Positions 2,559-6,734 of a DNA stretch of 36,871 nt are shown here, one piece after another. Every line of letters starts with the position of its first letter. Within the stretch, counting starts at the first letter, position 1. The notes under the pieces were generated by a model that worked only from the letters and a program-made list of their open reading frames with translations, did not search any database and had not been told where the DNA came from. The stretch spans positions 1 to 36,871 of the forward strand of contig JASJBY010000001.1 of the NCBI GenBank assembly GCA_030066245.1. Reading direction: 5' to 3'. The DNA is from Gammaproteobacteria bacterium. GTDB lineage: Bacteria > Pseudomonadota > Gammaproteobacteria > JAABTG01. The translations under genes and the position numbers were made by a program.

Positions 2559-2634
2559 GGCCAGGTAGCTCAGTTGGTAGAGCAGGGGACTGAAAATCCC
2601 CGTGTCGGGTGTTCGATTCACCCCCTGGCCACCA
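2559..2634 (+). tRNA. tRNA-Phe (GAA), CCA encoded
   Basis: Acceptor GGCCAGG/CCTGGCC, anticodon stem-loop GGGGA-CTGAAAA-TCCCC, T-loop TTCGATT, 3' ACCA. Confidence 0.95.
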
Positions 2635-2705
2635 CTTGCCTGCACTAAATCCTGTCACGATCTACCTGCTACAGGTTCGTCGCCTCCAGGGCAGACGTTG
2701 CCATC

Positions 2706-2741
2706 TGCCCAAATTGGGCACTAAAATGCCCGAAATGGGCA
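2706..2741 (+). promoter_or_regulatory. Two palindromic operator-like sites overlapping the start of the HTH-nucleotidyltransferase gene
   Basis: TGCCCAAATTGGGCA (2706-2720) and TGCCCGAAATGGGCA (2727-2741); centres 21 bp apart. Confidence 0.7.
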
Positions 2742-3382
2742 ACCTTACCACAAACAAGGGAAGCCGGCCTGCGCGCCGCAGGGCCGCCGCATCCGGCTTG
2801 GCGGCGCCTACGGGGCTGGCCGATGCGCTGTTCACGACTACTCAGCAAAGGGTGCTGGCACTGCTATTCGGTCAGCCCGCACGCAGCTTCTTCGCAACCG
2901 AGTTGATAGAGCTCACCGGCTCCGGTTCCGGCGCTGTGCAGCGCGAACTCAAGCGTCTCACTTCCAGTGGCCTCGTGACCGTTACGCGCATCGGCAACCA
3001 GAAGCATTACCAGGCCAACCCCAACTCGCCTGTCTTCGAGGAGCTCCGTCGCCTCGTGCTGAAGACCATTGCGCTGGCGGAACCGATCCGGCAGGCGCTC
3101 GAGCCGCTGGCAGACCGCGTTGAGCTGGCCTTGCTGTACGGCTCCGTCGTAATGGGTACGGACACCGCCCAGAGCGACATCGACATCCTGATTGTCGCCG
3201 AAGAAGTCACGCTGGAGGATGTCTACTCGGCACTGGCTCCGGTGGAAACGGATCTGGACCGCAAGATCAACCCCACCTTGTACACCTCTCAGGAATTCGC
3301 TGCTCGGAAGGCATCCAAGAATGCTTTCCTTACCCGAGTGATTTCGGGGGAGCACCTGGTCCTGCTTGACGGCAAGACATGA
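2726..3382 (+). CDS. Winged-HTH plus nucleotidyltransferase (MNT) protein, antitoxin-like
   Basis: N-terminal wHTH (ATELIELTGSGSGAVQRELKRLTSSGLV) and NTase motif GSVVMGTDTAQSDIDILIV. The ORF-track start at 2609 overlaps the tRNA; ATG at 2726 or 2735 is preferred. Confidence 0.85.
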   Translation: MPEMGNLTTNKGSRPARRRAAASGLAAPTGLADALFTTTQQRVLALLFGQPARSFFATELIELTGSGSGAVQRELKRLTSSGLVTVTRIGNQKHYQANPNSPVFEELRRLVLKTIALAEPIRQALEPLADRVELALLYGSVVMGTDTAQSDIDILIVAEEVTLEDVYSALAPVETDLDRKINPTLYTSQEFAARKASKNAFLTRVISGEHLVLLDGKT

Positions 3383-3798
3383 GTCATCCGCAACTTGATA
3401 ACTTGGTGCGAATTGGGAAGCTGAAGACCGAGCCACCAGGCCAGGGGGAGTTGGAGGGCCTGGTGCGCTCAGGCGTCCGGCGGCTCGGCGACGCTGAGCG
3501 GCCGGAACTAAGCCCTGAGAGCCGTTTCGACCTCGCCTACAACGCCGCCCATGCGCTGGCCCTGGCAGCACTGCGTTACCGGGGCTATCGCTCGGAATCG
3601 CGTTACCTGGTGTTTCAGTGCCTGCAGCACACGATTGACCTTCCTCCGGTACAGTGGCGGGTTCTGGATCAGGCGCACCGCAAGCGCAACCTGGCCGAGT
3701 ATGAGGGCGATACGGAAATTGACGAACAGCTCGTAGCCGCGCTGGTGCGGGTCGCGCGCGAGGTCGCGAAGCGCGTCAACAAGTTGGTGAAATCATGA
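3379..3798 (+). CDS. HEPN-like partner protein of the MNT gene
   Basis: ATGA overlap with the NTase gene; all-helical; AHRKRNLAEYEG resembles a HEPN motif but lacks the canonical His. Confidence 0.65.
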   Translation: MSHPQLDNLVRIGKLKTEPPGQGELEGLVRSGVRRLGDAERPELSPESRFDLAYNAAHALALAALRYRGYRSESRYLVFQCLQHTIDLPPVQWRVLDQAHRKRNLAEYEGDTEIDEQLVAALVRVAREVAKRVNKLVKS

Positions 3799-3987: not shown

Positions 3988-5310
3988 TCAACCTGTCCAT
4001 TGAATACGCTGCCACAAGGCCTTCAACCGATTTCCCCTGGACGGATTCAACCAGGCTACGTAGGCAACTCTGCCCGCCAAGTGAAACTTGAAGTCCACGA
4101 GCCCCCGGCGATTCTGACTGTCAGGGCCGAAGCGAACGCAGTTGTGGAGTACTGCCTTCAGGCGATCGTACTCACGGCGGCGTGGATTGGGCTTTTCATT
4201 CACTACGACACCGGCCAGGCACTGACATTGCCCCTGTGTATTGAGCCGAGTCTTGCGGTGATTCACACTGAAGCCTTCCTCCATTGCCACCGCTCCGACT
4301 AACCCCTGAAGGTAAGGTGCCAGGCCAACCAGTTTCGAGGAGCCGGAGAATGCCAGATCATCCGCGTATCGGGTGTAATCGAGACCGAAGTGCTCAGCCA
4401 CCCCATGCAAGCGGCAATCAAGACGCCAGGCACAGAGATTGGCGATGGCCGGCGAGGTAGGCGCCCCTTGGGGAAGATGCTTCTGTAGCAGGCGCTTCTT
4501 CCGTGCCCAGGACAGCTCCCGATAAGGTGCGCCCGCCAGTACAGGTGAGACGGCGTGGGTGCAGAGCCCCTGGAGTAATCGGGCCACGGTCGACGGATAG
4601 CCAAGGCGACGGAACAGGGCGCCGATGCGCGGCGTAGGCACGGAGTGAAAAAAGTCCTTGAGATCCATGCGCAGGATAGCGGCCTTACCGATGTGGGGAG
4701 CCGCATAGCTCAAACAGGAGTGACGGCGCCTGAAGCCATGCGCACACGGGTGAGGCGGTACAAGGTTCAACAGCTCGTGCAGCACCTGCCGCTGTATTAT
4801 TTTCAGGCGAGACTTGGGGATTTCAATCAGCCGCCGCATCCCCGACCGTTTGGTGATCCACCGATAGCGATAGTGGTGCAGCTTCGGTTCCACCATCCTG
4901 CTCTGCAACGCTTCGCGGTCGGCAAACCATGCCAGCTCGTTATCGAGCAGCCCCAGCCAGAGTCGTAGATCCTTCCAGGTGGCAAGCCGGGGCAGGGGAA
5001 GGGTGAACAGGCCGTCGGGCAACGGCCCCATGACCGGCGGCTCGAGCAAAATATTCTGCCTGAGGTCGTGCTGGGATTGGCTCCAGATCTGGTGAAGGTC
5101 GTCCTGGTCCCGGAGAAACGCCGTCAGTCGCGACATGGACGGGGGACGTCCCTCGTCGAAATGAAACACCAGCCGAGCTGCCAGGCGCCGGGGGTCGGGA
5201 GAACCACCGCCCAAAGCCCTCCGTATCCGGTCCGCCAGAGATTCCTTGTCCCAGCTCCCCGCGGTCAGGGAAAGCGCCAGCCGCCGGACCTCGGTCGTGT
5301 AACTGGACAA
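3988..5310 (-). CDS. Retron-like reverse transcriptase with about 140 aa N-terminal extension
   Basis: AHGFRRRHSCLSYAAPH, ILRMDLKDFFHSV, LPQGAPTSPAIANL, YTRYADDLAFS, GFSVNHRKTRL, CLAGVVVNEKPNPRR; TTG start follows an in-frame TGA. Confidence 0.9.
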   Translation of the reverse strand: MSSYTTEVRRLALSLTAGSWDKESLADRIRRALGGGSPDPRRLAARLVFHFDEGRPPSMSRLTAFLRDQDDLHQIWSQSQHDLRQNILLEPPVMGPLPDGLFTLPLPRLATWKDLRLWLGLLDNELAWFADREALQSRMVEPKLHHYRYRWITKRSGMRRLIEIPKSRLKIIQRQVLHELLNLVPPHPCAHGFRRRHSCLSYAAPHIGKAAILRMDLKDFFHSVPTPRIGALFRRLGYPSTVARLLQGLCTHAVSPVLAGAPYRELSWARKKRLLQKHLPQGAPTSPAIANLCAWRLDCRLHGVAEHFGLDYTRYADDLAFSGSSKLVGLAPYLQGLVGAVAMEEGFSVNHRKTRLNTQGQCQCLAGVVVNEKPNPRRREYDRLKAVLHNCVRFGPDSQNRRGLVDFKFHLAGRVAYVAWLNPSRGNRLKALWQRIQWTG

Positions 5311-5396
5311 TCAGAGTTCCCGCCAGATTGAAAGGGCGCTGGCCAGGCGCCGTCTCGAGGTTGAAGGGTGCGACCGGCCTCCGACTTATCTCGTAA

Positions 5397-5535
5397 CGGC
5401 CGGTACAACTCTGCGTGAAGCGCAGCGGCGTACCGGCAATGCAATGGACCACAGACAACGCTTCCCCGGGGTTGCCCCGGAGAGTTCCTAGACCTGTACA
5501 GAGCCAGGCCCTGGAACTACTCGGAGCACCGGCCG
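5397..5535 (-). ncRNA. Candidate structured RNA (msr-msd-like) upstream of the RT
   Basis: Minus-strand hairpins at 5483-5518, 5466-5480 and 5399-5437; closing stem CGGCCGGT (5535-5528) with ACCGGCCG (5404-5397); weak TTGACT-17-CAAGAT promoter at 5572-5544. No folding program was run. Confidence 0.4.
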
Positions 5536-5741
5536 CGAGGGACATCTTGAAAACCGCATACGCTGAAGTCAAGCGGCAAATGCACCAAAGACTCGGAGAC
5601 CAGGGGGGCATCGGCGCCGGCCGGCGACACTGGGCCAGGTCAGAAATACATTCGAATCGCCAGGTCCGGCAAACGCGAAACACACCTGCCCGGTGCAGGC
5701 TCTGGCCAGGCGCTAGGTGAGCAACGCCGACCGAACGTGAC

Positions 5742-6734
5742 CTACGGCGAATTCGCCAGGTCTTCGACAACCCGGGCAAGGCCGATGACGACCCGGGTCA
5801 AAGCATCAAAATCGACGTGCTCCGGGGTGTCGCTGGGCTTGTGGTAGTGGGGATTTCGAAAGGGCGCCGTGTCGGTAACCATCAAGGCCGGGTAACCCTG
5901 CGTCCAGAACGACGCGTGGTCGGAACGCCCTACATCTTTCACGAGAGAATCTGGTGCGGCCACGCCTTCGGAGGGAAACTGGGCATGCTTGCGAAAACTC
6001 GCGATGCTACGCCGAACGAGTGCGCGGGACTTCAGATTGCCCACGAATGCAATAAATGCAGCCACGTCAGGATAGAACCAGGAAAAAGGCGGCGGGTAGT
6101 GCTGACTGCCAGGCTTGTCACTGTAATAGCCAAGACTCTCCAACGCGAGCATGCCGACAACGGCCGCGCCTTCCTCTCGAGCGCGTTTGGCATAGACCAC
6201 ACTGCCCATGAGCTCGGAGTAGGAAAACGGCTCTTCTTCATTTGTGAACGCGACAAGATGCACTGTCCTGCTCAATGGCTTGTCCCGTAATAACCGAGCG
6301 ACCTCAATGAGACCTGCGACCCCGGATGCGTTGTCGTCCGCCCCGGGCGATTTGGCTACCGTATCGTAATGGGCGCCCACTACCACGATCTCGCTCTTTC
6401 GGTCTGATCCAGGGACCCGCACCACCAGGTTCTTGAAGGGCTGCCCCACGTCGCCGAAAGCCTGGGTCCCGACCCCATAACCCACGGATTCGAGCGTTTC
6501 CTCAATGTAGGCTGCCGCGGCATTCAGGTGTTCGGGCACCCCGACGTTTCGTTCGCCGATTTGGCCGGCAAGGTGACGCACATGGGTTTCCAGATTGCGA
6601 CGGACGCTCTCCCCGGTCTCGCTCAATGGAGGCAGTTCTCCGGAGTAGGACTGGCCCGGCATGGCTATCACCAGATACAGGGAAGCCGAGGCCAGAAAAA
6701 GCAGGATAAGTGCGAAAGCAATCAGATAATTCAA
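5742..6734 (-). CDS. M28 family zinc peptidase, membrane-anchored
   Basis: N-terminal TM; GAHYDTV, PGADDNASG, TNEEEP, GRSDHASFW. Confidence 0.88.
   Translation of the reverse strand: MNYLIAFALILLFLASASLYLVIAMPGQSYSGELPPLSETGESVRRNLETHVRHLAGQIGERNVGVPEHLNAAAAYIEETLESVGYGVGTQAFGDVGQPFKNLVVRVPGSDRKSEIVVVGAHYDTVAKSPGADDNASGVAGLIEVARLLRDKPLSRTVHLVAFTNEEEPFSYSELMGSVVYAKRAREEGAAVVGMLALESLGYYSDKPGSQHYPPPFSWFYPDVAAFIAFVGNLKSRALVRRSIASFRKHAQFPSEGVAAPDSLVKDVGRSDHASFWTQGYPALMVTDTAPFRNPHYHKPSDTPEHVDFDALTRVVIGLARVVEDLANSP

Follow-up and report, generated by a model that had tools for sequence, protein, structure and literature searches.

A probable retron of an untyped lineage, comprising an msr-msd-like RNA and a reverse transcriptase with a family-specific N-terminal helical domain

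Is a lone reverse transcriptase (RT) gene, preceded by a long leader and flanked by no obvious effector, a retron, and if so how might it act? The question is raised by a 36,871-nt stretch of a gammaproteobacterial genome (assembly GCA_030066245.1, contig JASJBY010000001.1, positions 1 to 36,871), hereafter the window, which encodes an RT that had been proposed from the DNA sequence to be a retron RT of a new subtype. Comparative analysis of the gene, its leader and their homologues makes it very probable that the locus is an authentic retron, belonging to a lineage without an assigned type and made up of two parts, a structured msr-msd RNA and an RT whose N-terminal helical domain is peculiar to its family (Table 1).

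Affinities of the reverse transcriptase

The motifs on which the original prediction was based, namely LPQGAPTSP, YADD, YAAPH and LAGVVVN, are all present in the translation of the RT open reading frame, which is intact and gives an RVT_1 match of 1.1e-20. Its start codon is a TTG at 5310, and most homologues have TTG or GTG in this position. Among PADLOC models the protein matches RT_other (1.7e-142), RT_outgroup, which is labelled retron (1e-134), and RT_XIII (1e-85), and among NCBIfam models it reaches 176 bits with retron_St85, below that model's own cut-off of 235, versus 27 bits with Drt2. Its best solved relative is the RT of retron Ec86 (2.3e-31). The RT core is predicted with pLDDT mostly >90, and a Foldseek search with the predicted structure returned retron RTs as all of its top matches, Ec86 first (E 2.7e-20), with group II, DGR and DRT RTs after them. 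Both sequence and modeled fold thus point to the retron class of RTs. The two deviations remarked on earlier, in regions X and Y, are real and common to the whole family: in region X the H of NAxxH is kept and the N replaced throughout, and region Y reads LTG, LAG, VTG and similar, with LAG in the window RT. These departures from NAxxH and VTG count against a retron; the same N is also replaced in Ec48 and Mx65, and the VTG also deviates in Vc81 and Ec48 (PMC6868368).

Searches at the level of class, phylum and order, together with a scan of genome contigs and plasmids, recovered 32 loci including the window, which come from gammaproteobacterial genomes, Burkholderia megaplasmids, other proteobacteria and two actinobacterial plasmids. 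Close full-length members occur in 21 of 210 genomes of one order, 12 of them in a single genus, 12 species of which carry the family, and in none of four other genomes of the window's own family. Homologues on viral contigs and in phage records were only distant RTs, mostly with 25-36% identity over the RT core. In the phylogeny the family forms one clade (support 100/99), apart from the type XIII-like, I-C, XI and I-A RTs; the protein scores and folds as a retron RT and stands in a clade of its own. Since the window copy nests inside the clade of the genus with 12 carriers, horizontal transfer is suggested. The RT is under strong purifying selection, as dN/dS is 0.06-0.18. Some copies are broken: the RT gene has an in-frame stop in a close homologue (TAG in L134) and in a distant one (TGA in L150), and in L001 it is truncated and directly followed by another RT gene (5294-6583). 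In places, therefore, the system is decaying or can be done without.

The N-terminal extension, put at roughly 140 aa in the original prediction, is in fact about 100 aa long, with residue 47 of Ec86 aligning with residue 146 here. It is modeled as helical at low confidence (pLDDT 31-56 by block) and evolves faster than the RT core, with dN/dS of 0.15-0.53 versus 0.06-0.18. Searches of Pfam and PDB with the N-terminal ~95 aa gave no credible relative and matched no known effector; hits to PLC-beta3 in PDB (E 0.008) and to GntR (E 0.08) were judged to be chance matches. The N-termini of type XIII-like RTs show no profile match to that of the window family (hhalign probability 0.2), and the family alignment displays no obvious conserved set of catalytic residues in this domain.

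A conserved structured RNA in the leader

As had been claimed, the stretch from 5311 to 5741 contains no credible gene. Folded alone, the whole 432-nt leader is not unusual (z -1.0); the exact 167-nt element folds far better than its shuffles (z -5.35, 0 of 200). Alignment of homologous leaders showed 46-85% identity inside this element and 17-32% outside the element and its promoter. RNAalifold recovered the a1/a2 closing stem and two hairpins, to which we manually added a third hairpin of variable sequence. Across 24 leaders the structure comprises 37 pairs, 21 of them with double (compensatory) changes, and 96.6% of cells are paired, as against 35-44% in slid alignments and with 0 of 500 shuffles as good. 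An alignment of 30 leaders, which was fitted to the model and so leans towards it, gives 47 pairs, 41 with double changes. The a1/a2 stem accounts for 14 consensus pairs, 11 with double changes, and it forms in the window's own fold too. At least 30 related loci share the conserved shape of this RNA.

Table 1. Features of the locus, in coordinates of the window
Feature	Coordinates	Strand	Description
Retron-type RT	3988..5310	-	440 aa, TTG start; RT core from ~residue 100; YADD; region X YAAPH; region Y LAGVVVN
Family-specific N-terminal helical domain	5026..5310	-	residues ~1-95; five helices, low-confidence model
msr-msd-like structured RNA	5370..5536	-	167 nt; from alignment, covariation, covariance model and fold
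a1 arm	5521..5536	-	GCGGCCGGTGCTCCGA; pairs with a2; covariation
Candidate priming/branching guanosine	5520	-	directly 3' of a1; role inferred from PMC6868368
msr hairpin I	5483..5517	-	variable sequence, covarying
msr hairpin II	5464..5482	-	CTCCGGGG-CAA-CCCCGGGG; 9-bp stem, 3-nt loop; best-conserved part
msd hairpin (hairpin III)	5399..5437	-	9-bp and 5-bp helices, internal loop between
a2 arm	5370..5384	-	TCGGAGGCCGGTCGC; pairs with a1; covariation
Conserved promoter	5544..5572	-	-35 TTGACT (5567-5572), 17-nt spacer, -10 CAAGAT (5544-5549)

A covariance model built from the 24 leaders was tested on leaders left out of the build, and it recognized L153 (1e-20), the Burkholderia loci L012-L014 (1e-12 to 1e-14), the actinobacterial L016 (7e-11), L151 and L152 (~1e-6) and, weakly, L015 (0.003). 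It found no match at 13 more distant retron RT loci (L154-L166, including type XIII-like ones) or at 42 RT loci of viral contigs. Of 30 whole genomes searched, 26 carry the RT, and 24 of these have a single copy of the full-length element, placed directly upstream of the RT gene; none was found in the 4 genomes that lack the RT. The remaining two positive genomes contain the divergent L151 and L152 copies, which were seen in locus-level searches and lie below the genome-wide threshold. Reverse-strand matches, mainly of hairpin III alone, were discarded as palindromic echoes. A search of 5250-5760 against Rfam returned no family up to E = 10 and, within a limited literature search, the family's msr-msd appears to be undescribed.

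Published retron RNAs have 1-3 msr hairpins, with stems of 7-10 bp and loops of 3-10 nt, a1/a2 repeats of 8-30 nt, an msd stem of 10-50 bp that is usually mismatched and, at the inner end of a1, a priming G within TAGC, CAGC, GAGC or a similar context (PMC6868368). The parts of the window RNA agree in size with this anatomy: 1) a covarying RNA lies upstream of the RT on the same strand. 2) It is closed by an a1/a2 repeat. 3) A guanosine is found at the inner end of a1, where position and identity agree with the priming G; this column is G in 30 of 30 leaders, its context being GAGT in the window and mostly GAGC/GAGT or AAGC in the family, and its priming role is a prediction. 4) Inside the closing stem come two msr-type hairpins, followed by 5) one msd-type hairpin, whose short stem (9+5 bp) is at the low end for retrons and counts against this reading. 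Of 28 homologues, 26 have a TTGAC upstream of the element, and in most of them its distance from the element is nearly constant; the position of the promoter, which the leader alignment reveals and consensus promoter/terminator scans missed, would put the transcript start at about a1. The leader that had been pointed out as the place for an msr-msd is hence conserved and covarying among homologues, down to the a1/a2 repeat and the G that follows a1.

An RNA that is co-directional with the RT, upstream of it and furnished with its own promoter might instead be a riboregulatory leader of the RT mRNA, that is, an attenuator or autoregulatory binding site that serves as no template. We regard this as highly improbable: hairpin II lies anywhere from 112 to 190 nt from the start codon, the linker to the RT is unconserved, and every part of the RNA matches an msr-msd, including a closing stem that ends at an invariant AG, which is not required of a regulator. 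It is also very unlikely that the protein is a non-retron RT of the DRT kind, which would use the upstream RNA as template or scaffold in the manner of DRT2 or DRT9 and dispense with a branched 2'-5' primer. Some DRTs likewise consist of one RT gene to which an upstream RNA is linked, and have no effector gene; however, in NCBIfam the 27 bits for Drt2 (cut-off 390) and 15 bits for Drt3 (cut-off 200) compare with the 176 bits for retron St85, the fold search ranks retron RTs first and DRT2 only at rank 27, and the RNA possesses the a1/a2 repeat, the G after a1 and the msr/msd hairpins.

By analogy with established retron biochemistry, the C-terminal region of the RT would bind msr hairpin II with its 9-bp stem and 3-nt loop, prime from the 2'-OH of G5520, and begin copying at G5385, continuing across the msd hairpin and halting short of msr hairpin II. 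The predicted product is a branched msDNA of roughly 60-80 nt.

Gene neighborhoods and the effector question

No gene family besides the RT recurs across the 32 loci. Neighbors include mutS (7 loci in one genus), an AbiEii-like pair, an AraC-type regulator and transporters. The mutS gene is downstream of the retron in L131, L132, L136, L137, L138, L141 and L142, and its product was confirmed as MutS by Pfam for L136. Since an msDNA can titrate MutS if its stem is mismatched (PMC6868368), this adjacency and the internal loop of the msd hairpin are suggestive, though only suggestive, of a link to MutS. Elsewhere in the window a 23S rRNA intervening-sequence protein of the S23 family (802-1164, + strand, 7.6e-40) stands alone, with no rRNA gene in the window.

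Convergent with the RT, 2609-3379 and 3379-3798 (+ strand) encode an HTH-nucleotidyltransferase and a small, HEPN-like partner, annotated by PADLOC as PDC-M05A/B and resembling MntA/HepT; the pair directly follows a tRNA-Phe gene (2559-2634), and no tRNA-derived att repeat was found. Toxin-antitoxin pairs of this kind could in principle serve as the effector module of a retron, and the pair is directly downstream of the RT also in L134, L136 and L142, while a homologue of its first gene is upstream of the RT in L141. Its convergent orientation in the window and its absence beside most homologues, including the closest (L129), nonetheless make this very unlikely; further, in one genus the pair sits in a variable region with other cargo, and a published lone retron RT adjoined a PDC that defended on its own (PMC12548924).

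Given the absence of a conserved neighbor, the output would come from the RT-msDNA particle itself, in which the fast-evolving N-terminal domain is the most likely agent, or from a protein that the host supplies or that is encoded at an unlinked site; this is a weaker inference than the steps of msDNA synthesis. One possible, though tentative, version is a retron with only one protein: the helical domain at the N-terminus of the RT would itself act as sensor or effector, restrained by the retron's own short msDNA; if true, this would be a retron type working without a separate or enzymatic toxin. The same lack of a conserved neighbor, the broken RT genes and the patchy spread could alternatively mean that the retron is an orphan whose effector is gone and which survives as a neutral or decaying element. 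We consider this unlikely in view of the strong purifying selection on the RT, the maintenance of the RNA by compensatory changes across proteobacterial and actinobacterial hosts, and the spread through 12 species of one genus. Retrons are established anti-phage systems; since no effector was found, such a role for this locus is hypothetical. With its conserved RT and RNA and no linked effector, the probable retron described here offers a clean case for asking whether the RT-msDNA particle alone acts. For the msr-msd, exact coordinates and a covariance model are now available, as is a prediction open to experiment; its small size (~167 nt) makes it a compact template for tools based on RT-DNA.

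Relationship to known retrons

What defines each of the 13 named retron types is its effector and the structure of its operon. The absence of a recognizable linked or fused effector sets this locus against them and has to be counted against the retron reading. The proposal of a retron of new subtype holds as regards the retron, given the RT class, the clade and the covarying msr-msd; its novelty is partial, as PADLOC-DB already models this RT clade as an unassigned retron RT. RT_other (PDLC02949) and RT_outgroup (PDLC03740, labelled retron) represent the same RT family and are the best match for the window and for six of six further members, near full length including the N-terminus (1e-127 to 1e-161). 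They are protein models without a type; to these our analysis adds the msr-msd RNA of the family, a covariance model for it and the finding that no effector is linked. Covariance models of msr-msd RNAs are also part of PADLOC (PMC9252829).

Among the typed retrons, type XIII differs in that RT_XIII scores 286 bits with the window RT versus 474 for RT_other, the N-terminus is not alignable and the RNA model has no match at XIII-like loci. The myxococcal retrons Mx162, Mx65, Sa163 and Ne144, compared by their descriptions, share with the window RT an extended N-terminus of unknown function, and Mx65 further shares the loss of the N of NAxxH and, with many members of the family, the GAGC priming context (PMC6868368). 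Their nearest proxies, the type XIII-like RTs among L154-L166, however, differ in the N-terminus and leave the window RNA unmatched, and the Mx162 transcript is 241 nt long versus ~167 nt here. Retron-Bth1 and Retron-Sda1, lone RTs likened to ours by description, likewise lie outside the known types and have no obvious effector (PMC12548924). Ec86/Eco1 (type II-A) differs in its ~27% identity, in its intact NAxxH and VTG, in having an effector gene and in being without an N-terminal extension; yet it is the closest solved RT fold (TM 0.82 on target), and its RT recognizes in the msr an 8-bp stem with a 3-nt loop (PMC6868368), to which hairpin II of the window RNA offers a similar counterpart.
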